This document shows, piece by piece, positions 8,127-29,217 of a stretch of DNA of 64,000 nt. Under the pieces are notes generated by a model. It saw only the letters and a list, made by a program, of their open reading frames with translations, did not search any database and was not told the DNA's origin. Origin of the DNA: Aminobacter carboxidus. Its GTDB lineage: Bacteria > Pseudomonadota > Alphaproteobacteria > Rhizobiales > Rhizobiaceae. Both the position numbers and the translations under genes were made by a program. The stretch lies in contig NZ_JACZEP010000006.1 in the NCBI RefSeq assembly GCF_014863355.1, forward strand, positions 186,001 to 250,000, written 5' to 3'. Numbering within the stretch: the stretch's first letter is position 1; every line of letters begins with the position of its first letter.

Positions 8127-9431
8127 ATGACTGACAGCAAACGCTTCTTCGACCTCGGCAAATCAGGCCTCAGCCGCCGTACGGCGCTCAAGGGCCTCGC
8201 CGCCGGCGCCGGCCTGATGGCCGCGCCCGGTTTCGTCCGCTACTCGCAGGCGCAGTCATCGGCGCCGATCAAGATCGGCTTCCAGGCCCACCGCACAGGC
8301 ATCGGCGCTGCCTATGGCCGCTGGTACGAAAAGACCACCAACGCCGCGGTCAAGCTGATCAACGATGCCGGCGGCATCAACGGCCGCCCGGTCGAGATCA
8401 TCGTCGAAGATGACGGTACCGACCCCAAGCGCGGCGCCGAGGTGGTTGCCAAGTTCGCCTCTCAGCACAAGACCGACATCGTCTTCGGCACGCTGTTTTC
8501 GCATGTCGTCGTCGGCTCGGCGCCGACCGCCGGCGAACTCAAGATTCCCTACTACGTCGTCAGCGAAGGCTATCACGTCGCCTCGGGCAAGCTGAACCGC
8601 TGGGTCTTCCAGCCCGGCATTACCGACGTGCGCTCGCAGGTCACTTCGGTCGCCCCTTGGGTCGCCGCCAACCTCGGCAAGAAGGTGACGATGATCTATC
8701 CGGACTACGCCTTCGGCTACGATCACCGCGACTATTTCGCGCCCGCCCTCAAGGCCCAGGGCGGCGAGGTCGTGGCCCAGATTCCGATCCCGCCGACCGA
8801 AAGCTCGTTCACCAAGTATCTGCCGCAGATTCCCGCCGACACCGAGGTGCTGTACCACGTCATGGTCGGCCCCGGCGTTCTGACCTTCGTCAAGGAACTC
8901 GGCGAGTTCTACGGCTCGAATAAGCCGAAGCTGTTCGGCTTCATCGACTCGCTCGAGGCTGTCGACATCAACAGCCCCGGCCTCGAATTCCTCGACGGCA
9001 GCCATTTCTGGGAAGGCTCGCCGCGCTACGCCCAGGCCAATGACAGCGAGGCGCAGAAAGCCTATCGCGCGGCCGTCGGCATCGACGATAATGGCGCATC
9101 GACGACGGATGCCAAGGACGTGTCGACCGCCGCCCACATGTTCGGTTGCTGGGAAACGCTCTACGTCATCAAGAAGGCGATGGAGGATTCAAGCTACAAG
9201 GGCCCCGAGGACCGCGCCAAGCTGGTCGAGGCGACCGAGGCGCTGACCGAGTTCAAGGAAGGCCCCGAGCATCCCCAGGGCGACAAGAAGTTTAACGGCA
9301 AAATCCACCAGGTCTTCGGCCACCAGAACATCTCCAAGGTCGAAGGCGGCAAGCTCAACGTCGTGCACCGGACCTCGATCGAAGACGGCATGTACGAGCC
9401 GGAAGCGGACTACACGACACAGCCGCTGTGA
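8127..9431 (+). CDS. Branched-chain amino-acid-type ABC transporter substrate-binding protein
   Basis: A 434-residue periplasmic binding protein of the LivJ/LivK or amide/urea type (type-I periplasmic fold). It starts with a twin-arginine signal (LSRRTALKGLAAGAG, residues 15-29). The mature region has the family pattern IKIGFQAHRTGIGAAYG, then LINDAGGINGRPVEIIVEDD near 80-98 and the YPDYAFGYDHRDYF hinge segment near 190. It is first of five co-directional genes that form a whole Liv-type importer. The branched-chain family carries very diverse ligands (amides, aromatic acids, urea), and the neighbouring pnc and nicotinate genes make a pyridine or amide ligand possible (inference only). Confidence 0.92.
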   Translation: MTDSKRFFDLGKSGLSRRTALKGLAAGAGLMAAPGFVRYSQAQSSAPIKIGFQAHRTGIGAAYGRWYEKTTNAAVKLINDAGGINGRPVEIIVEDDGTDPKRGAEVVAKFASQHKTDIVFGTLFSHVVVGSAPTAGELKIPYYVVSEGYHVASGKLNRWVFQPGITDVRSQVTSVAPWVAANLGKKVTMIYPDYAFGYDHRDYFAPALKAQGGEVVAQIPIPPTESSFTKYLPQIPADTEVLYHVMVGPGVLTFVKELGEFYGSNKPKLFGFIDSLEAVDINSPGLEFLDGSHFWEGSPRYAQANDSEAQKAYRAAVGIDDNGASTTDAKDVSTAAHMFGCWETLYVIKKAMEDSSYKGPEDRAKLVEATEALTEFKEGPEHPQGDKKFNGKIHQVFGHQNISKVEGGKLNVVHRTSIEDGMYEPEADYTTQPL

Positions 9432-9470
9432 GCAGCTTGCTGGATGCTGCTTAGGTTGAGTGCCTTGCCA

Positions 9471-9623
9471 CCCCCCTCTGTCCTGCCGGCGATCTCCCCC
9501 TCAGAGGGGGAGATCGGCCGTCATCAAGACATACGGCAATCGCCCAGGTCGCAAGACTGGCGCGACGCCACTGCTGCTGATCTCCCCCCTTGCGGGGGAG
9601 ATGTCCGGCAGGACAGAGGGGGG
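9471..9623. repeat. RIME-like nested palindrome with 19-bp terminal inverted repeats
   Basis: Left end CCCCCCTCTGTCCTGCCGG (9471-9489) is perfectly complementary to 9605-9623. Inside are two smaller hairpins, GATCTCCCCCTC/GAGGGGGAGATC (about 9491-9515) and GATCTCCCCC/GGGGGAGAT (about 9580-9602). It fills the gap between the binding-protein and permease genes and could act as an RNA-stability or attenuation structure that lets more binding protein than permease be made. Confidence 0.85.
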
Positions 9624-9655
9624 TGCGACGGAGCGCAACTTGGGTGGGTTCCCTA

Positions 9656-10537
9656 GTGGCCTTTTTCCCGCATCTCCTGCTCGCCACGCTCGAAGGCCTG
9701 GTCACCTCGGCGGTTCTGGCGCTGACGGCACTCGGGCTGTCGCTGGTGTTCGGCGTCATGCGCATCGTCAACGTCGCGCATGGCGAATTCTTCATGCTGG
9801 GTGCCGTACTTGCCTGGGCGATCACCACCACGCTCACTGGCCACCCGGCCCTTGGCTTCGCGATCGCTTTGGTGCTGTCGCCGCTGATCGTCGGCGCCAT
9901 CGCCTGGATCGCCGAGCGGCTGGTGCTGCGCCGCATCGAGTACAATCCCGAAGCGACCATCGTGGCCACCATCGGCCTGCTCTATATCATCCAGCAGTTG
10001 GCGCTGACCTTCTACGGCCCCGAGGCGCGGCCGGTGACGCCGCCGTTCAACTACCGCATCCAGCTGCCATGGTTCGGCTACTCCGGCTACAAGCTGTCGA
10101 TCATCGCGGCCTCCGCACTACTCCTGCTCGCCACCTGGTTCGTGCTGACACGCACCCGCATCGGGCTGATCATGCGGGCAACGCAATATGACCGCGAGAC
10201 AGCCCTTGCCTTCGGCATCCCGGTCGGGCGCGTCTATGGTGCGGTCTTCGCGCTCGGCGCCATGCTCGCGGCCATCGCCGCGGTGCTGATCGTGCCGATC
10301 CAGCAGGCGCATTATCTGATGGGGCTCGACCCGCTGCTGCTGTCGTTCATCGTCGTCATCATCGGTGGGCTCGGCTCGCTGCGTGGTACGGTCATCGCCG
10401 CCCTGCTGATCGGCGTCTCCGACGGCATCATTTCGGTGTTCTTCTCACCGACGCTGGCCAAGATCATCGCCACGCTCGTCGTTGCCATGGTGCTGGTGTT
10501 CCGGCCGCAGGGTCTGTTCGGGACAGCAACGAAATGA
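9656..10537 (+). CDS. LivH-type ABC transporter permease
   Basis: An inner-membrane permease of the LivH family, about 293 residues, with 8 or so hydrophobic segments. Family hallmarks: GLVTSAVLALTALGLSLVFG, then MRIVNVAHGEFFMLGA near the N-terminus, and VVIIGGLGSLRGTVIAALLIG near the C-terminus. The open frame extends to a TTG at 9590, but this part codes for the palindromic element; GTG 9656 gives the normal family length and is preferred (GTG 9644 is an alternative). No strong ribosome site is visible there, so translation may be coupled to the upstream RNA structure. Its stop overlaps the next permease (ATGA). Confidence 0.9.
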   Translation: MAFFPHLLLATLEGLVTSAVLALTALGLSLVFGVMRIVNVAHGEFFMLGAVLAWAITTTLTGHPALGFAIALVLSPLIVGAIAWIAERLVLRRIEYNPEATIVATIGLLYIIQQLALTFYGPEARPVTPPFNYRIQLPWFGYSGYKLSIIAASALLLLATWFVLTRTRIGLIMRATQYDRETALAFGIPVGRVYGAVFALGAMLAAIAAVLIVPIQQAHYLMGLDPLLLSFIVVIIGGLGSLRGTVIAALLIGVSDGIISVFFSPTLAKIIATLVVAMVLVFRPQGLFGTATK

Positions 10538-11499
10538 GCGGCGACGGCACGACAACAAAGGTCTACGCGCTGCATGGGGCCGTCATAGCCGTGCTCGTCG
10601 CGCTGAATTTCGTGCTGCCCGAGTATCATCATGGCGTACTGGCGCGGGTGCTGGTGCTCGCCGTCTTTGCCATGGGCTACAACTTGCTGTTCGGCTATGT
10701 CGGGCTGCTCAGCCTCGGCCATGCCATGTTCTTTTCAGCCGGGCTCTATGGTGCCGGCCTGCCGCTCTACCATCTCGGCTGGGGCGTCGTGCCGGCCTTT
10801 GCCGGAGGCATTGGCGCGGGTTTCACCGTATCGCTGTTCATCGGCCTTTTGGCGCTGCGCACCTCGGGCGTCGCCTTCATGATCGTGACGATGATGTTCG
10901 CCCAGGTGTTCTATCTCACCACGCTCTATTTCGGCGAATGGACCCGCGGCGACGAAGGGCTGGTGCTGCAGCAGCACACGCGGCGGATAGCGCTCGGCAG
11001 CGAAACACTCGACCTGACCAACCCGGCGACGCGCTATCTGATGGCGGTGGCGCTTTTTGCGGCAACACTCTTCGCCACGCTTGCCATCGTCCGCTCGCGC
11101 CATGGCCGCGTCCTCGTCGCGATCCGCGAGAACGAAGAGCGAACGAAGATGCTCGGCTACGACACCTTCGCCAACAAGCTGGCCGCGGTCGTGACCTCGG
11201 GTGTCATTTGCGCCGCGGCGGGTGCAGCCTATGCGCTGTTGTTCGGTTATGTCGGCTCGACCTTCGCCTCGGTGCAATACTCGATCCTGCCGCTGCTCTG
11301 GGTCCTGCTCGGCGGTGCCGCGACAACGCTCGGCCCGCTGCTCGGCACGCTGTTCATGTACTACGTCGTCGACATCACCAGTGGTTACACCTCGGCCTAC
11401 ATGCTGGTCGTCGGCGCCATGCTGATCCTTCTGGTGCTGTGGTTCCGCAAAGGCGTGCTCGGCACGGTGCGCGAGCGCTGGCTCAGGTGGTTGCCATGA
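10534..11499 (+). CDS. LivM-type ABC transporter permease
   Basis: A 321-residue permease of the LivM family, partner of the LivH-type permease with which it overlaps by 4 bp. Characteristic stretches are [20 protein letters not shown] (about residues 48-67), where the GxxSLGHA motif is diagnostic, the [16 protein letters not shown] helix, the [19 protein letters not shown] cytoplasmic loop near residue 200 and the [17 protein letters not shown] coupling region. It has about 9-10 hydrophobic segments. It overlaps the ATPase gene downstream, so the subunits are made in step. Confidence 0.93.
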
Positions 11500-12229
11500 C
11501 GGCACTTTTGACCACCAAGGGCCTGTCGCGCCATTTCGGCGGCCTGCGTGCCGTCGATAATGTCGATTTCTCACTCGAGCCGGGCGAGATCCGAGCGGTG
11601 ATCGGCCCCAATGGCGCTGGCAAGACGACCTTCGTCAGCCTCGTCTGCGGCCGCTACGCGCCAAGTTCTGGCCGCATCGTCTTCGACGGCGAGGACATCA
11701 CCGACATGCCGGCACACCTCAGGGTCCGGCGCGGCATCGCCTATACGTTCCAGATCACCAGCGTATTCGCCAACCTCAGCGCCTACGAGAACGTCGCCCT
11801 GCCGGTGCAGCGCACGCTGACCGACGGGCGTTCGCGCAGGGCGGTGCGGCAAAGCGCGATGGAAGCGCTCGAACGCGTCGGGCTGGCCAGCCGGGCGCAT
11901 GAGCAGGCCGGCGCCTTGGCCTACGGCCACCAACGGCTGCTCGAGGTGGCGATGGGGCTGGCGCTCAAGCCGCGGCTGCTCATCCTCGACGAGCCGACGC
12001 AGGGCCTTTCGGACAGCGAGATCGAAAACTTCATCGCCCTTGTGCGCGAGATAGCCAGCGATGCAACGGTGCTGCTGATCGAACACAACATGCAGGTGGT
12101 GATGGAATTGGCCCGGCGCATCACCGTGTTCGACGCCGGCAAGATCCTGGCTGAAGGCAGCCCGGCTGAGATCCGCGCCAACACTGCGGTGCAGGAAGCC
12201 TATCTCGGCACCGTGCAGGAGGCAGGCGC

Positions 12230-12233
<4 letters not shown>
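11496..12233 (+). CDS. LivG-type ABC transporter ATP-binding protein
   Basis: A 245-residue cytosolic ATPase of the LivG family. The ATG at 11496 overlaps the LivM stop; a longer open frame upstream in this frame is only the shadow of livM. Walker A is GPNGAGKT (about residues 36-43), the signature is the LivG-specific [17 protein letters not shown] form in place of LSGGQ, and Walker B is [11 protein letters not shown]. The [22 protein letters not shown]-loop stretch is also typical. It pairs with the LivF-type ATPase whose start overlaps its stop. Confidence 0.94.
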
Positions 12234-12933
<700 letters not shown>

Positions 12934-12937
<4 letters not shown>

Positions 12938-14467: not shown

Positions 14468-15067
14468 CTAGACGAGCTTCACGCCGGCGTCGCGCATCTT
14501 GCCGATCATCATTTCCAAGGAGCCGCCGAGATCGATGGCCCGGCATGCATCGAGGCGCACCGTGGTGGCAAAACCATGCTTGACCGCGTCGAGCGCCGAA
14601 TAGGCGACGCAAAAATCGGTGGCGAGGCCGACAAGAGTGATCGAAGCGACGTCGCGCTCGCGCAGGTAGCCGGCGAGACCGGTCGGGGTAAAACGATCGT
14701 TCTCGAAGAACGCCGAATAACTGTCGATATGCGGGCGAAAGCCCTTGCGGATGACCAGTTCGGCCTTGGACCAGGCAAGGCCGGAATGGAAGTCGGCGCC
14801 ACGGCTGCCCTGGATGCAATGATCCGGCCACAGGGTCTGTGGGCCATAGGACATGCGCACGCTTTCGAACGGCTGCTTGCCGGTGTGGCTGGAAGCGAAG
14901 CTCGAATGACCGGCCGGATGCCAGTCCTGGGTCAGCATGACGTGCTCGGCGTTGCGGATGAGATCGTTGACCAGCGGAATGATCTCGTCGCCCCCATTCA
15001 CGGCAAGCGCACCGCCAGGGCAGAAGTCGTTTTGCAGATCGACGACGACGAGCGCGTCCGTGGCCAT
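14468..15067 (-). CDS. pncA: Nicotinamidase
   Basis: A 199-residue cysteine hydrolase that converts nicotinamide to nicotinate. Catalytic triad by family alignment: D10 (VVVDLQNDF), K108 (VIRKGFRP) and C153 (VGLATDFCVAYSALDA). Metal ligands D48, H50 and H54 (DWHPAGHSSF) are present. The longer open frame to 15142 is not needed: ATG 15067 with a GGGGG-rich leader gives the usual length. It is divergent from the six-gene operon at 15275-22303 and so would feed nicotinate either to pncB (4824) or to that operon. Together this makes a strong niacin theme. Confidence 0.95.
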   Translation of the reverse strand: MATDALVVVDLQNDFCPGGALAVNGGDEIIPLVNDLIRNAEHVMLTQDWHPAGHSSFASSHTGKQPFESVRMSYGPQTLWPDHCIQGSRGADFHSGLAWSKAELVIRKGFRPHIDSYSAFFENDRFTPTGLAGYLRERDVASITLVGLATDFCVAYSALDAVKHGFATTVRLDACRAIDLGGSLEMMIGKMRDAGVKLV

Positions 15068-15229
15068 GGGGCCCCCATGCTGGTTTCGGTACCGCCTCGC
15101 TGGCGGGCCGCCGAAATTCGTCCAGAAGGCGCCTTGCGTCAACCATCAACTTGGCGAAGCGCGATCCCACCAGGAAGTGATCCGGCGAAGTAAAGCCAGG
15201 CTTTGACAAAAGATCGCGGCAGGTTATCA

Positions 15230-15242
15230 CTTGTGTACGAAT
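15230..15242. promoter_or_regulatory. Candidate operator upstream of the nicotinate operon
   Basis: CTTGTGTACGAA is a degenerate version of the TTTGTATAC element found at 8024-8040 and 27051-27064, about 35-45 bp before the GTG of the flavin-subunit gene and in the 207-bp divergent region shared with pncA. It could be a site for the MarR regulator encoded at the operon end or for a GntR protein. Evidence is only the similarity and position. Confidence 0.25.
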
Positions 15243-15274
15243 GAAAATGTCCGGCACCGGCCCGGAGGCATTGC

Positions 15275-16132
15275 GTGACCCGTTACGCGAAACCCAAGAC
15301 GCTCGACGAAGCGCTGGCGCTGCTCAGCGAGGGTTCGTGGCGAGTTCTGGCGGGCGCAACGGACTTCTACCCCGCCCTGGGCAGCCGGCCGCTGCAACAC
15401 GATGTAATCGATATCAATGGCATCGGCGCGCTGCGGGGCATCGCCGAAAACGGCAGCCATTTCATCATCGGGGCACGTACGAGCTGGGCCGAGATCGACA
15501 AGGCGCCGCTGCCGCCGGCCTTTGAGGCGCTGAAGCAGTCGGCGCGCGAGATCGGATCGATCCAGATTCAGAACGTCGCGTCGGTAGCCGGCAATATATG
15601 CAATGCTTCGCCGGCGGCCGATGGCGTGCCGCCACTGATGGTCCTCGACGCCGAAGTCGAGCTGCAGTCGCGTCACGAGCTGCGAATCCTGCCACTTGGC
15701 GAATTCATCGTCGGCAACCGCCAAACGAGGCTGCGCGCGGACGAACTGGTAACAGCCCTGCGCATCCCAAAGGCCAGCGTTGCCGGGCGTTCGGCCTTCG
15801 TCAAACTGGGTGCCCGGCGCTATCTCGTCATTTCAATCGCCATGGCGGCGGCACGGGTCGTGCTTGACGGCCAAGGGCGGATCGCCAGCGCGGCGATTTC
15901 GGTGGGCTCCTGCTCCGCGGTGGCGCAACGGCTGCGAACCCTGGAAGCTTCGCTCGCCGGGCAAAGGCTGGAAGCTACCGAAGCCGCCGTTTTAGCCGCA
16001 GAGCTGGATGAATTGTCGCCGATCGACGACGTGCGCGGCAGCGCCGGATACAGGCGACGTGCGGCGCGCGAGATCGTGACGCGAGCCTTGTTGCAGGCAG
16101 CCGGCGGTTCGCAGAAACAGGCAGCGGCATGA
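15275..16132 (+). CDS. FAD-binding subunit of a xanthine dehydrogenase-family hydroxylase (putative nicotinate dehydrogenase)
   Basis: A 285-residue medium subunit of a molybdenum hydroxylase that transfers electrons from Fe-S clusters to FAD. It shows the two family FAD motifs: LAGATDFYPALGSR near residues 26-39 and IQNVASVAGNICNASPAADG near 99-118. A CO_deh_flav_C-like region follows (FVKLGARRYLVISIAMAAAR). Start is GTG with GGAGG six bases upstream. The stop overlaps the ATG of the fused Fe-S/molybdopterin gene. In this context the likely reaction is C6 hydroxylation of nicotinate; xanthine or another N-heterocycle remains possible because the subunit does not define substrate. Confidence 0.88.
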   Translation: MTRYAKPKTLDEALALLSEGSWRVLAGATDFYPALGSRPLQHDVIDINGIGALRGIAENGSHFIIGARTSWAEIDKAPLPPAFEALKQSAREIGSIQIQNVASVAGNICNASPAADGVPPLMVLDAEVELQSRHELRILPLGEFIVGNRQTRLRADELVTALRIPKASVAGRSAFVKLGARRYLVISIAMAAARVVLDGQGRIASAAISVGSCSAVAQRLRTLEASLAGQRLEATEAAVLAAELDELSPIDDVRGSAGYRRRAAREIVTRALLQAAGGSQKQAAA

Positions 16133-18891
16133 AGAGCGACCGGGCGCCGATCAGCTTCACAGTGAACGGCGCCCTCACGTCGGTAACCGCCGCGCCGATG
16201 CGGCGGCTGTCGTCGGTGCTGCGTGACGACCTCAGGCTGACTGGGACCAAGGTCGGCTGCGACGCCGGCGACTGCGGCGCCTGCACCGTGCTCATGGACG
16301 GCGAACCGGTCTGCGCTTGCCTGTTGCCGATGGCGTCGGTCGAGGGCGCCTCAATCCGCACGATCGAAGGATTGAGCAATGGCAAGCTGTCGGCGCTGCA
16401 GGCTTCGTTCCTGGCCCATGGCGCAGCACAATGCGGCATCTGCACACCCGGACTGCTGGTGACCGCGACCCCACTGCTGGAACACACGCCACGGCCGAGC
16501 GAACAGCAGGTGCAAGACGCGCTCGGCGGGGTTTTGTGCCGCTGCACCGGCTACCGCAAGATCATTGAAGCGGTGATGGAGGCGTGGAAGCATGTCAGCG
16601 CGACCGACGGACCACTCGACTTACGCCTGCCGCCGGCAGGTGGCGCAATCGGCGCCTCTCCCGTCAGGCTCGACGGCATTCCCAAGGTAACGGGCGCCGA
16701 ACGATTCGGTGGCGATTCATTCCCCGCTGATGCGCTGTCGGTGCTGGTGATCCGCTCACCGCATCACCGCTCCAGCTTCTCCTTCGGCGATCTGGATGCC
16801 TATGTCGCCGACAACACCGGCGTTGTGGCTGTCTTCACCGCCCGGGATATTCCGGGCATCAACAGCTTTGGCGTGATCCCGCCGTTTGCCGACCAGCCGG
16901 CACTGGCCGAGGGCGAGACGCGCTTCCGCGGTGAAGCGGTGGCGCTGGTGGCCTGCGAGAGCTGGGCGGCGCGCGATCTGGATATGGCAGCTTTCCCGGT
17001 CGCATGGCGCGAATTGCCGGCGTCGCTGGAACCGGCCGACGCCCAAGCGGAGGGGGCAGCACTCGTCCATGCCAACCGGGCCGGCAATCTGTTGGTGCGC
17101 GGATTGGTCGAGCGCGGCGAGCCGGAAAGTGCCTTGGCTCAAGCCGTATGCGTAGTCGCGGGCACCATGCAGACATCCTATGTCGAGCACGCTTACATCG
17201 AACCGGAAGCCGGCTATGCATTTGTCGACGGCGATACGCTGACCATCGTCGCCTGCACCCAGGCGCCACACATGGACCGCGACGACACTGCGCGCATCCT
17301 CGGCCTCGCGCCCGAAAAACTGCGCATCGTGCCGACGGCAACCGGCGGCGGTTTCGGCTCGAAGATCGACATCTCGCTGCAGCCGCTGATCGGGCTGGTG
17401 GCGCTGAAGACGGGGCGCCCGGCGGCACTCGCCTACAGCCGCACGGAATCGATGGCCTCGACCACCAAGCGCCATCCGGCATCGATGCAGGCAACGATCG
17501 GCGCCGACGCCGACGGCACCATCCGTGGCATGGTGTTTTCAGGCGAATTCAACACCGGCGCCTATGCCAGTTTTGGACCGACCGTCGCCAACAGGGTGCC
17601 GGTGCATGCCTCGGGCCCTTATGCCACGCCGAACTATCGCGCCATTGCCCGCGCAATCCACACCAACGGACCGGTGTCGGGCGCCTTTCGCGGCTTCGGC
17701 GTGCCGCAGGCGACGCTGATGCAGGAGACGCTGCTCGACGAGCTTGCCGACCAGCTAGGCATCGACCGGTTGCAGATACGCTTACGCAATGCACTTCGGA
17801 ACGGCTCCGAAACAGTGACCGGGCAGCGGCTTGAAAGCGGTGTCGGCATCGGCGAGTGCCTTGAGGCGCTGCGATCACACTGGACCCGCGCGCTGGCCGA
17901 AGCGTACGCCTTCAACGCAACCCATTCCATGACGAAACGCGGCGTCGGCATCGCCTCGTGCTGGTATGGCTGCGGCAACACCTCGCTGCCCAACCCCTCG
18001 ACAATCAAGCTCGGCATCTCGCCCGACGGCAAGTTGGTGCTGCACCAGGGCGCGGTCGACATCGGCCAGGGATCGAACACCGTCATCGCCCAGATCGCCG
18101 CCGACGCGCTTGGCCTGCCGCTCGGCGACTTCGTGCTGCGAAGTGCCGACACCTCGATCACACCCGACGCCGGCAAGACTTCGGCGTCGCGCCAAACCTT
18201 CGTCAGTGGGAAAGCGGCGGAAAAGGCGGCAAGGGCGCTGCGCGACACGGTCCTGCGCTACGCCAATGTCTCAAACGAGGCATCGCTGCAGTTGCTGCAA
18301 GGCGGCCTGCTGCTGGTGTATGAAGGTGGCGAACGGCGGCGCATCGACCTGACGCAGCTTGATGCCGACAAGGACGGCCTCGTCTTCGTTTCAGAGGAAA
18401 GCTACGACCCGCCAACCGCGCCGCTCGATGCCATGGGCCAGGGCAAGCCCTATGCGGTCTATGGCTATGGCGCCCAGATCGCCGAGCTCGAAGTCGACCT
18501 AGCGCTTGGCACGGTGAGGCTGGTCAAGATCACCGCGGCGCACGATGTCGGCAAGGCGATCAATCCGATGCTCGCCGAGGGCCAGATCGAAGGCGGCATT
18601 GCCCAGGGCATCGGCATGGCGCTGATGGAGGAATACATCCCCGGCCGAACCGAGAACCTGCACGACTACCTGATCCCGACCATCGGCGACGTACCGCCGA
18701 TCGAGACGATATTGATCGAAGTTTCGGATCCGGAAGGACCGTTTGGCGCCAAGGGTTTGGGCGAGCACGTGCTGATTCCGACGGCACCGGCGATCCTCAA
18801 CGCCATCCGCCACGCCACCGGCGTAACGATGACCAAGGTGCCGGCGACGCCGTCGCGGGTGCTGGCGGCAATCCAGCAGGCACGTCGATGA
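16129..18891 (+). CDS. Fused [2Fe-2S]/molybdopterin subunit of a molybdenum hydroxylase (putative nicotinate dehydrogenase)
   Basis: A 920-residue fusion of small and large subunits. N-terminal plant-type [2Fe-2S] cysteines are C44, C49, C52 and C64 (GCDAGDCGACTV); the second cluster has C102, C105, C137 and C139 (CGIC ... CRC). From about residue 175 comes the molybdopterin domain, beginning SPVRLDGIPKVTGAERFGGD, with ATGGGFGSKIDIS near 405 and the active-site glutamate E879 in GAKGLGEH. Usual xanthine dehydrogenase-like hydroxylases have these as separate genes or in another order. No XdhC-like maturation gene is nearby. Translationally coupled on both sides. Next to 6-hydroxynicotinate reductase, nicotinate is the best substrate guess (inference). 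Confidence 0.85.
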   Translation: MKSDRAPISFTVNGALTSVTAAPMRRLSSVLRDDLRLTGTKVGCDAGDCGACTVLMDGEPVCACLLPMASVEGASIRTIEGLSNGKLSALQASFLAHGAAQCGICTPGLLVTATPLLEHTPRPSEQQVQDALGGVLCRCTGYRKIIEAVMEAWKHVSATDGPLDLRLPPAGGAIGASPVRLDGIPKVTGAERFGGDSFPADALSVLVIRSPHHRSSFSFGDLDAYVADNTGVVAVFTARDIPGINSFGVIPPFADQPALAEGETRFRGEAVALVACESWAARDLDMAAFPVAWRELPASLEPADAQAEGAALVHANRAGNLLVRGLVERGEPESALAQAVCVVAGTMQTSYVEHAYIEPEAGYAFVDGDTLTIVACTQAPHMDRDDTARILGLAPEKLRIVPTATGGGFGSKIDISLQPLIGLVALKTGRPAALAYSRTESMASTTKRHPASMQATIGADADGTIRGMVFSGEFNTGAYASFGPTVANRVPVHASGPYATPNYRAIARAIHTNGPVSGAFRGFGVPQATLMQETLLDELADQLGIDRLQIRLRNALRNGSETVTGQRLESGVGIGECLEALRSHWTRALAEAYAFNATHSMTKRGVGIASCWYGCGNTSLPNPSTIKLGISPDGKLVLHQGAVDIGQGSNTVIAQIAADALGLPLGDFVLRSADTSITPDAGKTSASRQTFVSGKAAEKAARALRDTVLRYANVSNEASLQLLQGGLLLVYEGGERRRIDLTQLDADKDGLVFVSEESYDPPTAPLDAMGQGKPYAVYGYGAQIAELEVDLALGTVRLVKITAAHDVGKAINPMLAEGQIEGGIAQGIGMALMEEYIPGRTENLHDYLIPTIGDVPPIETILIEVSDPEGPFGAKGLGEHVLIPTAPAILNAIRHATGVTMTKVPATPSRVLAAIQQARR

Positions 18892-20423
18892 ACGAGCTCT
18901 CGGAACGTTTCGAAACGCATGAACCCGGCGACGTGCACGCCGGCGAAAAGCTGCGCTGCGACGCCTGCCCGGTCATGTGCTACATCGCCGAGGGCCGCAC
19001 CGGCGCCTGCGACCGCTACGGCAATTTCGGCGGGCGCATCGTGCGCGCCGATCCCGTCCGCATCCTCGACTATGCGGTCCAAAGCAACGCGGCCTTGGTG
19101 CCATTCGGCGGCGAGGCGTGGGACGGGGAGTTGGTCAACACCGGCCGGCGCTTCGTTACCGCTATCGGCGCCGGCACGACCTATCCCGATTACAAGCCAG
19201 CGCCATTCATCGTCAGCCAGGAGGTCGAGGGCGTCGATCTGGTTACCGTCGTGACCGAAGGCATCTTCTCTTATTGCGGCGTCAAGGTGAAGATCGACAC
19301 CGACCGACACCTTGGTCCCGAGACGGCGACGGTGCGCGCCCAGGGCGAGGCTGTCGGCCATGTGACAACGGGCGAGTACGGCTCGCAGATGCTGTCGCTC
19401 GGCGGCGTGCATCATTTGACCGGAGGCTCCAAGTCGGAAGGCCGAGTAACCTGCGCGGCTCTGCTCGACCTGTGCAACAAGAAGCCGGTGGAACTTAGCA
19501 TCGACGGCGGCGCGACAATCCTGGTCGAGGCCGGCAAGCCGCCGATCATTGACGGCACCGTCGAACATCGCATGCGCGTCGGCTGCGGATCGGCGACCAT
19601 CGGCATGTTCGCCACCCAGTGGCGCGGGCTTGTCGACGAGGTCGTGGTGGTCGACGACCACATCACCGGCGTCGTCTCCGAGCATCAGGCCGGCAAGGTG
19701 CTGGGCTGGCAGGCGACCGGGATCAGGATCCTCGGCCGTCGCTCGACGCCGGGGCGCTATTTCAAGGTATCGGAACCCGGCCTCGGCTGGGGCGGCACCT
19801 CGATTTCCGATCCGCTTGCCATCCTCGGCGAGTGGAACGCCGGCAAGGGCGCGCGGCCCGGCCTGTCGATGTTGATGGTGTCCACCACCGGCGAGCAGTT
19901 CGCCTATTACGAGCTCGACGACGATCTGAAGCCGGTCGAAAAGCCGTTTCCGGAGCGGCTGCGCAAGTCGGTCGGGCTGATCGAGGAAAATTGTGAGCCG
20001 GCTTTGTGTACGGTGTTGTTCGTCGGCGGCGCCGGCGGCAGCCTGCGCGCCGGCGTGACGGAGAACCCGGTCAACCTGACACGTTCGGTGCAAGGCTTGA
20101 GAACCTATGTGACGGTGGGCGGCGCGCCGGTTTATGTCTGGCCCGGCGGCGGCATCACCTTGATGGTCGACGTCACGCGCGTGCCTGACAACGCCTTTGG
20201 CTACGTGCCGACCCCGGCACTGGTGGCGCCGATCGAATTCACGTTGCGGCGCGACGACTATCTGGCGCTGGGCGGCTACGAAAGCGAGATCAGGAGCCTC
20301 GCCGACGTGCTGCAGCGCGGCGGTGAATATTACAACGAGCGGGCGACTGGGTCGGCCGGGACAGACAACCCCTGGCCACCGCTGGCGCAACTGCGCCTGA
20401 TGGCGCCGGGCGGGTTGCCATGA
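18888..20423 (+). CDS. 6-hydroxynicotinate reductase
   Basis: A 511-residue protein that I recognise as the family of 6-hydroxynicotinate reductase, the ferredoxin-dependent enzyme from Eubacterium barkeri that reduces 6-hydroxynicotinate to 1,4,5,6-tetrahydro-6-oxonicotinate. The N-terminus has a C-x2-C-x3-C-x9-C cluster motif at C24, C27, C31 and C41 (LRCDACPVMC ... GACDRYGNF), suited to a [4Fe-4S] centre. Further single cysteines occur in FSYCGVKVKI, VGCGSATIG and ENCEPALCTV. No signal peptide, so cytosolic. It overlaps the hydroxylase gene before it and the UPF0280 gene after it by 4 bp each. The presence of a reductive nicotinate step in an otherwise aerobic-looking genome is notable. 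Family assignment is from memory of sequence features. Confidence 0.78.
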   Translation: MNELSERFETHEPGDVHAGEKLRCDACPVMCYIAEGRTGACDRYGNFGGRIVRADPVRILDYAVQSNAALVPFGGEAWDGELVNTGRRFVTAIGAGTTYPDYKPAPFIVSQEVEGVDLVTVVTEGIFSYCGVKVKIDTDRHLGPETATVRAQGEAVGHVTTGEYGSQMLSLGGVHHLTGGSKSEGRVTCAALLDLCNKKPVELSIDGGATILVEAGKPPIIDGTVEHRMRVGCGSATIGMFATQWRGLVDEVVVVDDHITGVVSEHQAGKVLGWQATGIRILGRRSTPGRYFKVSEPGLGWGGTSISDPLAILGEWNAGKGARPGLSMLMVSTTGEQFAYYELDDDLKPVEKPFPERLRKSVGLIEENCEPALCTVLFVGGAGGSLRAGVTENPVNLTRSVQGLRTYVTVGGAPVYVWPGGGITLMVDVTRVPDNAFGYVPTPALVAPIEFTLRRDDYLALGGYESEIRSLADVLQRGGEYYNERATGSAGTDNPWPPLAQLRLMAPGGLP

Positions 20424-21301
20424 ATGGTCCCGAGATCTCATGGCTGCCGGATCGGCGCCGCCTGCATTTCAACCATGGCCCGATCGACCTGATCGTCGAG
20501 GCATGGGGCGATCCCAAGGAGTTGCAGGCGGCCTACCGGCAAGCCGCCGCGCGTTTCGAAACGATCCTGCCTGAGCTTGTCGGGGAACTCACCGAGTTGC
20601 GCCGCCCGGCTTCGACCACGCCCCGAAACTTCCTTGGGTCGACGGCGCAGCGCATGGAGGCGGCGGTGGCGCCGCTGTCCCGGACATTCATCACACCGAT
20701 GGCCGCTGTCGCCGGTTCTGTCGCCGACGAGATGATGGCGGCGATGGTCGCCGGGCGCAGGCTCGACCGCGCCTATGTCAACAATGGCGGCGATATCGCC
20801 TTGCATATCTCGCCGGGCCAGGAGATTTCGGCAGCGATTGCCGACACCGGCCACGGTCTTGCCGACAGGCTGACCATCCGGGCGGAAGACCCGGTGCGCG
20901 GCATCGCCACCAGCGGCTGGCGCGGGCGCAGCTTTTCGCTCGGCATCGCCGATGCGGTGACGGTGCTAGCTGTCAGCGCTGCGGCGGCCGATGCGGCGGC
21001 AACGCTGATCGCCAATGCCGTCGACCTGCCGGGGCACCGCGCCATCCAGCGCCAGCCCGCGCGCGACCTCGCTCCCGACAACGATCTCGGCGACCGGCTG
21101 GTCACCACAGGCGTCGGCCCGCTTGACGCTGAAGAAATCGAACTGGCGCTCGAAGCGGGACTTTCAATTGCCGAAACCTTGCGGCGGCAAGGGTCGATCC
21201 AGACTGCAGCTCTATACCTAGGAGGCCGAAACCGCATAAGCGGCACGCATGAGCTTGCCGTAGCCGGTAATGTGACAAGGGGGGTTCCTGTCCATGCCTG
21301 A
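20420..21301 (+). CDS. UPF0280 (ApbE-like) family protein
   Basis: A 293-residue cytosolic protein of the uncharacterised UPF0280 family, distantly related to ApbE flavin transferases. Diagnostic stretches: FNHGPIDLIVEAWGDP near the N-terminus, FITPMAAVAGSVADEMMAAM at about 90-110, AYVNNGGDIALHISPGQ near 117 and GIATSGWRGRSFSLGIADAV near 157-176, followed by AAADAAATLIANAVDLPGH. ApbE enzymes attach FMN to proteins, so one idea is maturation of the adjacent reductase; another is a direct catalytic role on the tetrahydro-oxonicotinate ring. Neither is shown by the sequence. It is coupled to the genes on both sides (4- and 8-bp overlaps), which argues strongly for the same pathway. Confidence 0.85.
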   Translation: MNGPEISWLPDRRRLHFNHGPIDLIVEAWGDPKELQAAYRQAAARFETILPELVGELTELRRPASTTPRNFLGSTAQRMEAAVAPLSRTFITPMAAVAGSVADEMMAAMVAGRRLDRAYVNNGGDIALHISPGQEISAAIADTGHGLADRLTIRAEDPVRGIATSGWRGRSFSLGIADAVTVLAVSAAAADAAATLIANAVDLPGHRAIQRQPARDLAPDNDLGDRLVTTGVGPLDAEEIELALEAGLSIAETLRRQGSIQTAALYLGGRNRISGTHELAVAGNVTRGVPVHA

Positions 21302-21878
21302 TTTTCCGATCCGCAAGATTGCCGTGACAGTCGAGGAAATCCTTCACGACGGAGGGCCGCCCGCGCATGTCCCGCGACGACGGGCGGCGGCGCTTGCGGT
21401 GGTGAAGAACCCGTTCGCCGGCCGCTATGTCGAAGAGCTGCAAAGCGCGATGGAGGATCTGAAACCGCTCGGCCTGATGCTTTCCGACCGGCTGATTGCT
21501 TCGCTCGGTGGCGATACGAAGGCTATCGACGGTTATGGCAAGGGCGCCATCGTCGGCTCGGCCGGCGAGTTGGAACATGGCGCGCTATGGCATGTGCCCG
21601 GCGGCTACGCCATGCGCGATCGCCTCGGCGAAGCCAAGGCGATCGTGCCCTCCGCCAAGAAGCTCGGCGCCTTCGGTGCGCGGCTCGACGTGCCGATCGG
21701 CCATGTCAATGCCGCTTATGTACGTAGCCATTTCGACGCCATGGAAGTGGGCATGCCCGACGGGCCGCGCGCCGACGAAATCGTCTTTGCGCTGGTCATG
21801 ACCTGCGGCCCGCGCATTCACGACCGCATGGGTGGATTGAAGGCCTCCGACATCAAGGCCTGGGATGGCTTGCGATGA
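21294..21878 (+). CDS. DUF1185 (AA_synth) family protein
   Basis: A 194-residue protein of the family listed as amino acid synthesis protein (DUF1185), whose real reaction is not known to me. Conserved stretches are KIAVTVEEILHDGGPP at the start, AALAVVKNPFAGRYVEEL at 35-52, YGKGAIVGSAGELEHGALWH at 80-99, GYAMRDRLG and SHFDAMEVGMPDGPRADEI near 145-163. Several invariant charged and histidine residues (E93, H95, H99 by my count of that stretch) look catalytic. Overlaps UPF0280 by 8 bp and the MarR gene by 4 bp. As enamidase of the clostridial pathway is missing here, this small protein is a candidate for the ring-opening hydrolysis (inference). Confidence 0.85.
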   Translation: MPDFPIRKIAVTVEEILHDGGPPAHVPRRRAAALAVVKNPFAGRYVEELQSAMEDLKPLGLMLSDRLIASLGGDTKAIDGYGKGAIVGSAGELEHGALWHVPGGYAMRDRLGEAKAIVPSAKKLGAFGARLDVPIGHVNAAYVRSHFDAMEVGMPDGPRADEIVFALVMTCGPRIHDRMGGLKASDIKAWDGLR

Positions 21879-22303
21879 GCCCTGAAACCACCGAAGGCGG
21901 CTATCAGGTCCAGGGACAGATCGGTTTTGTGCTGCGCAAGGCCAACCAGCGTCATGTCGCGATCTTCGCGACACATATTGCGGACCTGACGCCACCGCAG
22001 TTCGCCGCGCTCGCCAAACTGCGCGATGTCGGCGAAACCTCGCAGAACCAGCTTGGCGGCCTGATCGCCATGGATGCAGCGACCGTCAAGGGCGTCATCG
22101 ACCGGCTAGCGGCACGCGGGCTGGTGCGACTGGCCAAGCATGAGGTCGACAAAAGGCGCCTGATGGTAACGCTGACCGACGAGGGCCACCGCCTCGTCGT
22201 CGAGCTTCTGCCGCAGGCGCGGACGATCACCGAAGAGACGTTGTCGCCGCTGTCGGCGAAGGATGCCGAAACGCTGCTGCAACTGCTGACGAAGATAAGT
22301 TAG
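21875..22303 (+). CDS. MarR-family transcriptional regulator (NicR-like candidate)
   Basis: A 142-residue winged-helix regulator. The DNA-binding core is visible as LTPPQFAALAKLRDVGETSQ, then LGGLIAMDAATVKGVIDRLA (recognition helix region, about residues 70-89) and the wing VDKRRLMVTLTDEGHRLV. It closes the operon, overlapping DUF1185 by 4 bp. In Pseudomonas putida nicotinate genes are controlled by a MarR-family repressor, NicR, which supports (but does not prove) the idea that this protein senses a nicotinate-pathway metabolite and represses the operon and perhaps pncA. Its stop codon runs into a G-rich repeated sequence. Confidence 0.9.
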   Translation: MSPETTEGGYQVQGQIGFVLRKANQRHVAIFATHIADLTPPQFAALAKLRDVGETSQNQLGGLIAMDAATVKGVIDRLAARGLVRLAKHEVDKRRLMVTLTDEGHRLVVELLPQARTITEETLSPLSAKDAETLLQLLTKIS

Positions 22304-26130: not shown

Positions 26131-26958
26131 TCAGCCGACGAAGGCGCGCTCGACGACGAAGGTGCCCGGCTCGTGCAGCGAGCCTTCGACGAAGCCGAGG
26201 CTCTCGGCCAGTTCCTTGACGTCTTTCAGCATATGCATCGAGCCGCAGATCATGATGCGGTCGGTTTCCGGATCGAGCTTGTCGATGCCGAGATCGCTGA
26301 AGAACTTGCCCGACGAAATGAGCGCGGTGATGCGGCCCATACGCTCAGATTCCTCACGCGTCGTCGAATTGTAGAGCGTGACGCGGCCATGGGTCAGCTC
26401 GCCGATCAGCGGGTCGCTTTCCAGATTGGCGACCAGTTCCTGGCCGTAGGTCAACTCGGCGACGTCGCGGCAGGTGTGGGTGAGGAAGACGTGTTCGTAG
26501 CGCTCATAGGTATCAGGATCGCGCAGCAGGCTGGCGAAAGGCGCGATGCCGGTGCCGGTCGAGATCATGAACAGGCGCTTGCCGGGGGTCAGCGCGTCGA
26601 GCACCAGCGTGCCGGTCGACTTCTGGCGCATCAGCACGGTGTCGCCGGGAACGATCTTCTGCAGCTCGGAGGTCAGCGGACCATCCGGCACCTTGATCGA
26701 GAAGAACTCGACTTCGTCGTCCCAGGACGGGCTCGCCACCGAATAGGCGCGGTAAACAGGCTTTTCGGCATTGGGTAGGCCGATCATGACGAACTCGCCC
26801 GAACGGAAGCGCAGCGACTGCGGCCGGGTGATGCGGAAGGCAAAGAGGCGATCCGTGTAATGCTTCACCGAAACCACAGTTTCGGCGTAGACATTGGCAG
26901 GGATTGGGAACTGAAGCGGCTTGGCTTCGGCCGTCTTCAGCGCTGCTGCGGTGTTCAT
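26131..26958 (-). CDS. fpr: Ferredoxin-NADP+ reductase
   Basis: A 275-residue FAD enzyme that exchanges electrons between NADPH and ferredoxin or flavodoxin. FAD-binding motif RAYSVASP at about 82-89, nucleotide-binding GTGIAPFASLLRD near 140, and the C-terminal CGSMHMLKDVKELAESLGF, with the tail VVERAFVG typical of the bacterial short Fpr class. Start ATG at 26958 with GAGAGG. It stands alone, divergent from hyuA, with its own terminator-like hairpin. Low-potential reductant from such an enzyme could support the ferredoxin-dependent 6-hydroxynicotinate reductase elsewhere in the window (inference), but it is also a general housekeeping and oxidative stress gene. Confidence 0.94.
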   Translation of the reverse strand: MNTAAALKTAEAKPLQFPIPANVYAETVVSVKHYTDRLFAFRITRPQSLRFRSGEFVMIGLPNAEKPVYRAYSVASPSWDDEVEFFSIKVPDGPLTSELQKIVPGDTVLMRQKSTGTLVLDALTPGKRLFMISTGTGIAPFASLLRDPDTYERYEHVFLTHTCRDVAELTYGQELVANLESDPLIGELTHGRVTLYNSTTREESERMGRITALISSGKFFSDLGIDKLDPETDRIMICGSMHMLKDVKELAESLGFVEGSLHEPGTFVVERAFVG

Positions 26959-27144: not shown

Positions 27145-29217
27145 ATGGACGAGAATATTCCCGCACAGGCGGGAAATGTCGTTGCAGGAATCGATGTCGG
27201 CGGGACCTTCACCGACCTGCTGCTGATCGACGGCGCAAATGGCGGGGCGGTCCGCATCGCCAAAACGCCAACGACGGTCGAAAACCAGGCCCATGGCGTG
27301 ATCGCAGCGCTCGCTGCAACCGGCTTCCCCATCCCTGCCATCGACCTCATCGTCCATGGTACGACGACCACCACCAATGCCGTGCTGGAGCGGCGGCTGG
27401 CCAAGACAGGCATGATCACCACGCTCGGCTTTCGCGACGTGATCGAGCTTGGGCGGCGGACAAGGCCGCAGCCCTATGGCATGACGGGGGTGTTCGTACC
27501 GGTCATTCCGCGCAATCTCAGGCTGGAAGTCAGCGAGCGCGTCGAGGCGTCGGGGCGGGTGCGCGAGCCACTCGACGAGGACGGCATGCGGTCGGCGGTG
27601 GCCGAGCTTGTCGCGGCCGGCTGCGAGGCGCTGGTCATCCATTTCCTGCATTCCTACGCCAATCCGTCGCATGAGAAGCGCGCTGCCGAGATCGCCGCCG
27701 AGATCTGGCCGAACAGCCACATCACCACGGGGCATTCGCTGTTGTCGGAAGCGCGCGAGTTCGAACGCGGTGTGACCGCCTCGGTCAACGCGGCAGTACA
27801 GCCGATCCTCGAACGCTATGTGGCACGGCTGCGCGATGAACTCAGCCAGCGCGGCTACCGCAGCGACTTCCTGATCATGAACGGCAATGGCGGCATGATA
27901 TCGGCCCGCTTCGTCACCCGCGAGGCGGCAAAGACCGTCATGTCCGGCCCGGCCTCGGGAGTCATCGCCGCTGCCTATACCGGGCGGCGCGCCGGCTTCG
28001 ACAACCTCGTCACCTATGACATGGGCGGCACCTCGACCGACGTGGCGCTGATCCTCAATGCGGAACCTGCGGTGTCGAACGAGATCGAGATCGAATATGC
28101 GATGCCGATCCATGTGCCGATGGTCGCGGTGCATACCGTGGGTGCCGGCGGCGGCTCGATAGCGCGTGTCGATGCTTCCGGGCTGATCCAGGTCGGGCCG
28201 GAGAGTGCTGGGGCCAATCCCGGGCCGATCTGCTACGGCCGCGGCGGCACCGAGCCGACGATCACCGACGCCAATCTGGTGCTCGGGCGCCTTGACCCCA
28301 GGAAACTGCTCGCGGTCGACAATCCGGTAACCGTCGAGGCGGTACGGAAAATCTTCGCAGACAGGATCGGCAAGGCGACTGGGCTGGACGGCGTGGCAGC
28401 GGCAGGTGCGGTGCTCAGGCTCGGCAACATCAGGATGGCGGGCGCCATCCGCATGGTCTCGGTGTCGCGCGGCCATGACCCGCGCGACTTCACGCTGTTT
28501 GCCTTCGGTGGTGCGGGACCGCTGCATGCCTCGGCACTTGCCCGCGAACTCGGCCTGCCCCGCGTGCTGGTGCCGGCGCGGCCAGGCATTACCAATGCGC
28601 TCGGCTGCGTCGTCGCCGATTTGCGCCACGACTTCGTCAACACGCTCAACCAGCCAGTGGCGATGCTCGACGAAAAGCGCGTCCACGAGGTGCTGGCGCG
28701 CCACCGGGCTGAGGGCGAGGCGCTGATCGCCAAGGAGGCGGTCCGGCCCCAGAGCATCCGCGTCAGCCATTCTGCCGACATGCAGTTTGTCGGGCAGACC
28801 CATCTCATCAACGTGCCGCTGCCTTCAGCGCATGTCGACCGCGAGACGCTGCAAGGGCTGTTCGAAACAGCCTATTTCGCCCGCTTCAAGGTCGAGCTGC
28901 CGGAAATCCGCGCCAACCTCGTCAATCTCAACACCTCGGTGACGGGCGTGCGCCCCGACATCGACCTCGGCAGCCTGATCGATCCGGCCGGGCGTGTGGC
29001 AACGCTGGAAGGAGCGCTGCGCGAAGTGAGGCCGGTGTGGTTCGACAGCGGCTGGCGCGATACGCCGGTGTATCTCAGGGAGAAATTGCCGCTCGATGCC
29101 GCCATCGAAGGCCCGGCGATCCTCGAGCAGATGGACGCGACGACGGTGCTGGAGCCCGGCGACCGGGCGCGGTCGGACCGGGATGGAAACATTATCGTCG
29201 AGGTGGGAGCACCATGA
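27145..29217 (+). CDS. Hydantoinase/oxoprolinase family protein, HyuA-type subunit
   Basis: A 690-residue ATP-dependent amidohydrolase subunit of the N-methylhydantoinase A / 5-oxoprolinase type. The actin-like ATPase part is clear: AGIDVGGTFTDLLLIDG near residue 15, HGTTTTTNAVLERR near 71, and YDMGGTSTDVALI near 291. A C-terminal domain (about 500-690) ends with ATTVLEPGDRARSDRDG, typical of HyuA. It overlaps hyuB by 4 bp; both subunits are needed for activity. Possible substrates are hydantoins, N-methylhydantoin (creatinine route), 5-oxoproline or caprolactam-like rings, and acetone carboxylase is a distant relative. Choice cannot be made from the sequence. Confidence 0.92.
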   Translation: MDENIPAQAGNVVAGIDVGGTFTDLLLIDGANGGAVRIAKTPTTVENQAHGVIAALAATGFPIPAIDLIVHGTTTTTNAVLERRLAKTGMITTLGFRDVIELGRRTRPQPYGMTGVFVPVIPRNLRLEVSERVEASGRVREPLDEDGMRSAVAELVAAGCEALVIHFLHSYANPSHEKRAAEIAAEIWPNSHITTGHSLLSEAREFERGVTASVNAAVQPILERYVARLRDELSQRGYRSDFLIMNGNGGMISARFVTREAAKTVMSGPASGVIAAAYTGRRAGFDNLVTYDMGGTSTDVALILNAEPAVSNEIEIEYAMPIHVPMVAVHTVGAGGGSIARVDASGLIQVGPESAGANPGPICYGRGGTEPTITDANLVLGRLDPRKLLAVDNPVTVEAVRKIFADRIGKATGLDGVAAAGAVLRLGNIRMAGAIRMVSVSRGHDPRDFTLFAFGGAGPLHASALARELGLPRVLVPARPGITNALGCVVADLRHDFVNTLNQPVAMLDEKRVHEVLARHRAEGEALIAKEAVRPQSIRVSHSADMQFVGQTHLINVPLPSAHVDRETLQGLFETAYFARFKVELPEIRANLVNLNTSVTGVRPDIDLGSLIDPAGRVATLEGALREVRPVWFDSGWRDTPVYLREKLPLDAAIEGPAILEQMDATTVLEPGDRARSDRDGNIIVEVGAP

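Follow-up and report, generated by a model that had tools for sequence, protein, structure and literature searches.

A probable reductive nicotinate-degradation locus of Aminobacter carboxidus with candidate roles for UPF0280, HyuAB and DUF1185

We describe here a six-gene operon of Aminobacter carboxidus and its surroundings within a stretch of 64,000 nucleotides (assembly GCF_014863355.1, contig NZ_JACZEP010000006.1, positions 186,001 to 250,000 of the forward strand) that we refer to as the window and that belongs to a genome of 6.29 Mb. We consider it reasonably probable that the window carries a nicotinate-degradation locus of the reductive type, which passes through 1,4,5,6-tetrahydro-6-oxonicotinate (THON), in a variant form in which the UPF0280 protein is a helper of 6-hydroxynicotinate reductase (Hnr), the HyuAB pair opens the ring and a DUF1185 protein acts at a later step. 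The pathway is not new, and neither is the presence of two unknown genes: PMC3511419 (2012) draws this cluster type for Azorhizobium (A. caulinodans), Bradyrhizobium (B. japonicum), Rhodopseudomonas and Bradyrhizobiaceae strain SG-6C, and gives two of the conserved genes as unknown at that time. What is new, as far as the literature searched shows, is the near-perfect pairing of Hnr with a UPF0280 protein of ApbE fold and, likely, HyuAB as an alternative to enamidase.

The operon and the HyuAB pair

The genes on which the argument turns are as follows.

15275..16132, + strand: putative nicotinate hydroxylase, FAD subunit (PF00941, PF03450; FAD_binding_5/CO_deh_flav_C)
16129..18891, + strand: putative nicotinate hydroxylase, fused 2Fe-2S/molybdopterin subunit (PF01799, PF02738, PF20256; Fer2_2 and MoCoBD_1/2)
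18888..20423, + strand: 6-hydroxynicotinate reductase (Hnr), named through relatives
20420..21301, + strand: UPF0280 protein, near-obligate partner of Hnr (NF003322, 391 bits against a cut-off of 290)
21294..21878, + strand: DUF1185/AA_synth protein (PF06684, 233 bits against a gathering score of 27)
21875..22303, + strand: MarR-family protein (PF01047)
27145..29217, + strand: HyuA, hydantoinase A/oxoprolinase subunit, candidate ATP subunit of a THON lactamase (PF01968, 300 bits; PF05378)
29214..30947, + strand: HyuB, hydantoinase B/oxoprolinase subunit (PF02538, 521 bits), with a 4-base overlap with hyuA

The coordinates of the open reading frames (ORFs) show six same-strand genes with overlaps of 4, 4, 4, 8 and 4 bases, and thus bear out the initial annotation, made from the sequence of the operon, of six coupled genes in this order and on this strand with overlaps of 4-8 bases. 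Domain searches agree with the families it named, with the exception that the third gene is named through annotated plasmid relatives instead, as no Pfam or NCBIfam model matched it at E 0.001. These relatives, on 26 plasmid records and 60-73% identical, are annotated as 6-hydroxynicotinate reductase in 17 cases and as hypothetical in three, with no listed gene in the remaining six; the closest named Hnr among the matches listed is that of Aminobacter niigataensis (90%). Eight Cys residues of Hnr do not vary in either alignment, of 13 and of 29 rows, and a ninth, C196, is present in 29/29 and 10/13 rows. Comparison with the PDB sequences gave no believable match to Hnr, the AlphaFold2 model is poor (pLDDT 63), and the Foldseek list was empty at 0.001 or better. 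The Hnr of Eubacterium barkeri reportedly contains a covalently bound flavin together with iron-sulfur clusters. Single in-frame TGA codons lie inside the matches to Hnr in two of the genomes surveyed below (G274 and G065), and inside those to HyuA in three others (G294, G207 and G245).

Pairing of UPF0280 with Hnr

The genome survey comprised 297 genomes of the order Rhizobiales. Hnr is present in 74 of these and UPF0280 also in 74, in 72 of them above the family cut-off, and the two coincide almost completely, with 72 genomes holding both, two Hnr only, two UPF0280 only and 221 neither (Fisher 5e-64). The Hnr-only genomes have an Hnr near a contig end (G120) or an Hnr fragment (G183), and the UPF0280-only genomes have a 24-bit fragment (G072) or a fragmented assembly (G185). 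Both genes are kept even where they are unlinked, being on separate contigs in G208, G135 and G181 and 229 kb apart in G068. Among 72,556 plasmids, Hnr occurs on 26, of which 12 are from Sulfitobacter, and UPF0280 on 27, with all 26 Hnr plasmids within the 27. The exception is Hydrogenophaga plasmid pBPS33-1 (locus L188), which has four UPF0280 places without a listed Hnr. We note that UPF0280 of this plasmid is part of an array of repeats, together with IS1071 transposases and genes for Rieske and PDR/VanB-type oxygenases.

Comparison of Hnr neighbourhoods, which had been set beforehand as a check, gives the same picture. UPF0280 lies on the same strand and less than 700 bases from Hnr at 119 of the 127 loci with a recognised Hnr ORF (128 loci were fetched), and because of this the gene arrangement is not one of chance. 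At three of the eight misses the contig ends close behind Hnr (L038, L126 and L139, with a partial UPF0280 visible at L126 and L139), three belong to the unlinked genomes (L042, L044 and L049), and the others are L166 and L043 (8.2 kb away).

A 27-row alignment of UPF0280 gave an AlphaFold2 model with a pLDDT of 90, and in the Foldseek search the structure 2o34 takes ranks 1-2 while ranks 3-41 are 39 chains of ApbE/FmnB/Ftp flavin transferases (probability 0.99-1.00, E 1e-5 to 1.5e-3). PMC12052999 describes catalysis by ApbE with conserved Ser, His and Asp residues (S241-H257-D285 in Vibrio cholerae). UPF0280 resembles ApbE and FmnB in overall fold and retains S165 and D191 of the catalytic triad, but it differs from them in lacking the catalytic His, in having no signal peptide that could be seen by eye, and in a Pfam ApbE score of only 10.3 bits against a cut-off of 25.6. 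In motif terms, we take the kept elements to be the Ser of ATSG, the Asp of AD and the NGGD motif. R170 is invariant in 27/27 UPF0280 rows, at a position where DVU1097 (2o34) has a His in the pairwise alignment, and H16 is the sole invariant His of the family. As to where a flavin might be attached, the GSAT sequence at residues 234-237 of Hnr was considered as an ApbE-type site and rejected, T237 being Ala in 2/13 rows, and no ApbE target motif was confirmed in Hnr.

UPF0280 thus probably matures or serves Hnr. The simplest reading is that it is a cofactor helper, and most likely a flavin helper, given that it folds like ApbE and occurs with Hnr nearly one to one. UPF0280 is named in no paper of the literature searched.

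HyuAB and enamidase as probable alternative ring openers

The initial annotation reported that no enamidase (Ena) is present and that the downstream route must be different or elsewhere. The first statement holds for the window, where a genome-wide search placed no Ena, but not for the genome, which has one on another contig (G000:C4:92960-94111, the sole match at E 1e-60 or better). This Ena is 68% identical to the query, the Hnr-linked Ena of G247, which in turn matches the E. barkeri enamidase 2vun at E=2e-109. As for the downstream route, an Ena does lie elsewhere, and a second candidate opener, HyuAB, is located within the window 4.8 kb downstream of the operon (27145-30947), beyond the end of the segment that had been annotated. 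The notion that the two proteins of unassigned family might substitute for enamidase was rejected with the finding of Ena on C4 and of HyuAB in the window.

Window HyuA is 85% identical to a copy near Hnr in G229. The pair belongs to the same HyuA and HyuB Pfam families as the caprolactamase CapAB (PMC8453981) and OplAB (PMC11033972), and the ATP-site Asp residues and four metal ligands are kept: D17 of HyuA in 38/39 rows (with one gap) and D292 in 39/39, as matched to CapA by motif with no printed alignment, and D40, H104, D107 and H129 of HyuB in 31/31 rows aligned to CapB (6yra_B). The CapB metal ligands are described as essential in PMC8453981, where the abstract gives D101 and the table D102; our alignment agrees with 102. 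HyuAB differs from CapAB in scoring below the caprolactamase equivalog cut-offs of NCBIfam (497 and 326 bits against 1000), and its substrate is presumed to be THON. OplAB, a related pair, hydrolyses delta-valerolactam (PMC11033972), which is a six-membered lactam, as THON is.

Of the 297 genomes, 31 have a HyuA of 59% identity or more; 30 of these are Hnr-positive, and the other is the UPF0280-positive G185, in whose fragmented assembly Hnr was not found. An Ena of 60% identity or more occurs in 43 Hnr-positive genomes. The two tend to exclude each other among the 74 Hnr genomes, of which 39 have Ena only, 26 HyuA only, four both (G000, the genome of the window, with G209, G248 and G098) and five neither (G032, G064, G159, G245 and G246, three of which have a HyuA at 48-50%); the Fisher value of 5e-11 ignores kinship. 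Counted by genus there are 21 with Ena, eight with HyuA, three with both and one with none. A tree of Hnr proteins was made for 55 of the 74 genomes with Hnr, using 47 rows from the fetched 10-20-kb loci, seven from short loci and the row of the window (L056 of G160 was left out because its Hnr ORF was not recognised), and on it Ena changes nine times and HyuA five times. The direction of the exclusion is consistent, and the independent events are few. Linkage to Hnr is seen for both openers in flanks of about 10 kb, shorter at contig ends: HyuA at 25/80 named Hnr loci and 14/48 others, and Ena at 2/80 and 10/48, respectively. In Fuscovulum ytuae HyuAB directly continues the operon, in one run after the transporter genes.

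We propose that HyuAB is probably an alternative ring opener, which stands in for enamidase in one group of genomes. The literature searched yielded no name for the ring opener of enamidase-less genomes and no paper joining the terms hydroxynicotin- and hydantoinase.

DUF1185 as a candidate for a later step

Both DUF1185 and UPF0280 had been put forward in the initial annotation as candidates for the downstream route; the suggestion survives for DUF1185, at a later step, and is probably wrong for UPF0280, which tracks Hnr and has an ApbE-type fold. DUF1185 occurs in 70 of the 74 genomes with Hnr, and in 31 of the other 223. The window protein is a clear sequence relative of two proteins of known structure with a chorismate-mutase-like fold, BB2672 (3byq, E=4e-53) and SPO0826 (2qtp, E=7e-46). 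The sections of PMC2954203 available, where these are described, show no function for DUF1185 and propose a role in amino-acid metabolism from neighbouring transporters of branched-chain-amino-acid (BCAA) type; in the window, the neighbour of this type is the transporter of the nicotinate cluster.

On a quick tree of 108 of 130 DUF1185 rows, from which the close Mesorhizobium rows L089-L111 had been dropped, the C4b type forms one clade, and the window DUF1185 is of the type found singly at the loci of HyuAB genomes. Among the 48 unnamed Hnr loci, 24 have a C4b-type DUF1185 (22 in Ena-only genomes and two in HyuA genomes), 15 have other types only (all in HyuA genomes, three of which also have Ena), and nine have none in their flanks. 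DUF1185 thus accompanies both openers, which suggests for it a step after the ring has been opened and not the opening itself. Ena with a tandem DUF1185 pair also stands without Hnr or UPF0280, both on the C4 contig stretch of the window's own genome, where neither is present, and in five g81 genomes, which have neither anywhere. The C4 module (L055, 80000-99900) includes the tandem DUF1185, Ena, a MarR gene and a RutB-like isochorismatase gene, and it adjoins an ABC transporter of nucleoside/BMP type and two genes that resemble ribonucleoside hydrolases; this module may take a ribosylated ring compound.

Twenty further DUF1185 loci were fetched, eight of them picked from genomes in which both genes were already known to occur. 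Ena lies within 5 kb at eight of the 20, an alpha/beta-hydrolase and flavin-reductase set at another eight, and neither at four; of the eight hydrolase/flavin-reductase loci, six also have a luciferase-like monooxygenase and an aldehyde dehydrogenase, one has the dehydrogenase only and one has neither. These we presume to be trigonelline-type clusters, which are alike in placing DUF1185 beside such enzymes but differ in that the ring is opened oxidatively and in that no Hnr or UPF0280 is found within 5 kb of DUF1185 at the further loci. In the nicotinate and trigonelline routes alike, a formyl- or aminomethylene-dicarboxylate is formed and then a semialdehyde. DUF1185 most likely acts at the formyl-/aminomethylene-dicarboxylate step, because both routes pass through such a dicarboxylate before the semialdehyde, and this is the weakest of the assignments made here. 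We note that TgnF, which is given as homologous to the DUF1185 protein HcdD, stimulates semialdehyde oxidation by TgnE, and that attempts to show this effect for HcdD did not succeed (PMC7913881).

Proposed pathway and known systems

In the proposed sequence of events, nicotinate would enter through an ABC transporter or be released from nicotinamide by the nicotinamidase PncA, and the Mo/FeS/FAD hydroxylase would, judging from its relatives, hydroxylate it at C6. Hnr, again by likeness to its relatives, would carry out reduction to THON, with UPF0280 as its dedicated helper, most likely for flavin, and not as a downstream enzyme. THON, a six-membered lactam, would then be opened by ATP-dependent HyuAB, and DUF1185 may work on the ring-opened enamine or 2-formyl acid in the direction of glutarate semialdehyde, the least secure of the steps; the MarR protein would control the operon. 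Both the neighbouring genes and the relatives give good support to the reductive nicotinate pathway that the initial annotation recognised, and the cluster type has been known since 2012.

The route via THON and glutarate would be shared with the Azorhizobium/SG-6C cluster, which is credited in PMC3511419 with the first three steps, whereas no enamidase was found in the window and HyuAB lies downstream instead. The E. barkeri route includes THON, a bifunctional enamidase and 2-formylglutarate (PMC9304392). The nicotinate dehydrogenase and Hnr of this organism's fermentation are of the types to which the putative hydroxylase and Hnr of the window belong, and an enamidase of the same family is present elsewhere in the genome of the window, but in the window the hydroxylase subunits are fused otherwise. 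No mutase or isomerase gene of the later clostridial steps came to notice in the window, no search having been aimed at such genes.

The metabolites of the pathway are known, and co-occurrence gives each unnamed gene one direct test. A THON lactamase would add one more natural substrate for the ATP-dependent lactam hydrolases, and flavin transfer by a UPF0280 without the ApbE His would mean that protein flavinylation also reaches an iron-sulfur reductase that is presumably cytosolic. More tentatively, and we regard this stronger combination as doubtful, the His-less ApbE relative UPF0280 would install or tend the Hnr flavin, HyuAB would be an ATP-driven THON lactamase by which enamidase was replaced on several occasions, and DUF1185 would be an enzyme shared by nicotinate and trigonelline-type pathways that converts ring-opened 2-(aminomethylene)- or 2-formyl-dicarboxylates to semialdehydes; if so, three enzymes of unassigned function (UPF0280, HyuAB and DUF1185) would become assignable.

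Alternative explanations

Several observations weigh against the variant pathway that we favour, the steps of which are read from sequence and gene context. At the ring-opening step, the genome of the window itself holds Ena, so that HyuAB need not be its opener. The 59% and 60% identity cut-offs were picked once the hit lists were known; the next HyuA group, at 48-50%, is found in seven genomes, of which four are Hnr-positive and three Hnr-negative, and an Ena of 60% identity or more is also seen in six Hnr-negative genomes. The exclusion between Ena and HyuA also follows phylogeny, and six independent pairs on supported branches give means of 2.0 opposite, 0.0 same and 4.0 with no HyuA difference (median p 0.5). 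For UPF0280, the 72 genomes with both genes count G224, where it is a 27-bit fragment just where a contig begins; the protein is without the catalytic His of ApbE, none being present between S165 and D191; in 4/4 genomes in which Hnr is unlinked, UPF0280 adjoins the DUF1185 pair and not Hnr, which fits a later pathway step too; and relatives of UPF0280 occur, below the family cut-off, in the methanogen controls Methanocaldococcus jannaschii and Methanosarcina acetivorans. DUF1185 is absent from four of the 74 Hnr genomes. The methanogen relatives may mean that the wider UPF0280 family has another role.

It is possible, although we think it unlikely, that this is the ordinary pathway of Azorhizobium and SG-6C, in which the C4 Ena opens THON and HyuAB serves some other lactam or hydantoin. 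The likeness of the C4 enzyme to the Hnr-linked Ena of G247 and to 2vun speaks for this, as does the presence of Ena in 43/74 Hnr genomes. However, in the family to which the window belongs, HyuA is found in 8/8 sampled Hnr genomes, five of which (G069, G105, G136, G229 and G265) have weak Ena matches only, with none at E 1e-60. The HyuA group at 59% or more is confined to the Hnr- or UPF0280-positive genomes of the sample, and the C4 Ena is situated with a nucleoside-type transporter and nucleoside hydrolases.

UPF0280 might, with a similarly low probability, be a pathway enzyme that acts on THON or on the ring-opened product. An obligate next step would give the same one-to-one occurrence with Hnr, and both the position of UPF0280 beside DUF1185 where Hnr is elsewhere and the lack of the ApbE His are consistent with such a role. 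Nonetheless, the Ena and DUF1185 modules that stand without Hnr, at C4 and in the g81 genomes, carry no UPF0280; conversely, G032 (a fragmented assembly), G064 and G159 have Hnr and UPF0280 but gave no match to DUF1185, and the UPF0280 fold is that of a cofactor transferase.

It is very unlikely that the hydroxylase and reductase act on another azaheterocycle and that the nicotinate label is an inherited annotation: the substrate is indeed assigned by sequence, and the fused subunit, for which the E. barkeri nicotinate dehydrogenase is among the matches (3hrd_A/B, its large and medium subunits), scores higher with aldehyde oxidoreductase 1dgj and others, but pncA and pncB lie nearby, PMC3511419 ties the conserved cluster to nicotinate in SG-6C, and another lineage has in the hydroxylase slot beside Hnr an 1184-aa Mo and cytochrome c protein. 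Such a fusion is the architecture of Pseudomonas NicB. The hydroxylase beside Hnr in the window has the right domain set and the 3hrd match, with the caveat that family membership does not tell the substrate.

Neighbouring genes and regulation

The other features of the locus are listed below.

4824..6128, + strand: pncB, nicotinate phosphoribosyltransferase of NAD salvage (NF003704, 518 bits against a cut-off of 379; TIGR01514, 292 against 270)
8127..12937, + strand: branched-chain-amino-acid/urea-type ABC transporter (ORFs for a binding protein, two permeases and two ATPases)
12934-14361, - strand: CitMHS_2 family transporter, between the ABC transporter and pncA
14468..15067, - strand: pncA, nicotinamidase, divergent from the operon (NF008623, 211 bits against a cut-off of 174)
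15203..15243, + strand: promoter-like block (TTGACA at 15203-15208, TATCAC at 15225-15230)
15228-15243: inverted repeat of CATT-N8-AATG type, imperfect in the window and overlapping the promoter-like block; candidate MarR operator
26131..26958, - strand: ferredoxin-NADP reductase-like protein, divergent from hyuA (NF008178, 135 bits, under the cut-off of 390)

The presence upstream of pncB, the two transporters and the divergent pncA supports nicotinate as the substrate, and the minus-strand NF008623 match confirms the divergent nicotinamidase that had been annotated. Copies of pncB (71%) are also close to Hnr at L068 and L071. The ABC transporter, for which NCBIfam matches were below cut-off and limited to the binding protein and first permease, is likely responsible for nicotinate uptake; the same type adjoins Hnr at many loci, and the transporter of the corresponding cluster is termed a putative nicotinate ABC transporter in PMC3511419. 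The ferredoxin-NADP reductase-like protein, with relatives in the flanks of 23/80 named and 14/48 other Hnr loci, is a possible supplier of electrons to Hnr.

The start of pncA was set at the internal ATG at 15067, where the family match begins, and counted from this probable start the gap between pncA and the operon is 207 bases. Within it, the columns of the promoter-like block are at least 80% conserved over 39 aligned intergenic regions, the window among them; many of these are from close kin (Mesorhizobium), and kinship accounts for part of the conservation. The MarR-family protein is likely the regulator of the operon, and from the sequence it may bind the upstream inverted repeat.

Two further observations concern the composition of related loci. 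Copies of the CitMHS_2 transporter, 73-84% identical, are present at 27/80 named Hnr loci. At L068 (10326-14863), and similarly at L071, L081 and L083, the hydroxylase slot holds a different protein, which in L068, where alone its domains were scanned, is the molybdopterin/cytochrome c fusion of 1184 aa accompanied by a 2Fe-2S protein, an arrangement that we take to be that of Pseudomonas NicAB.

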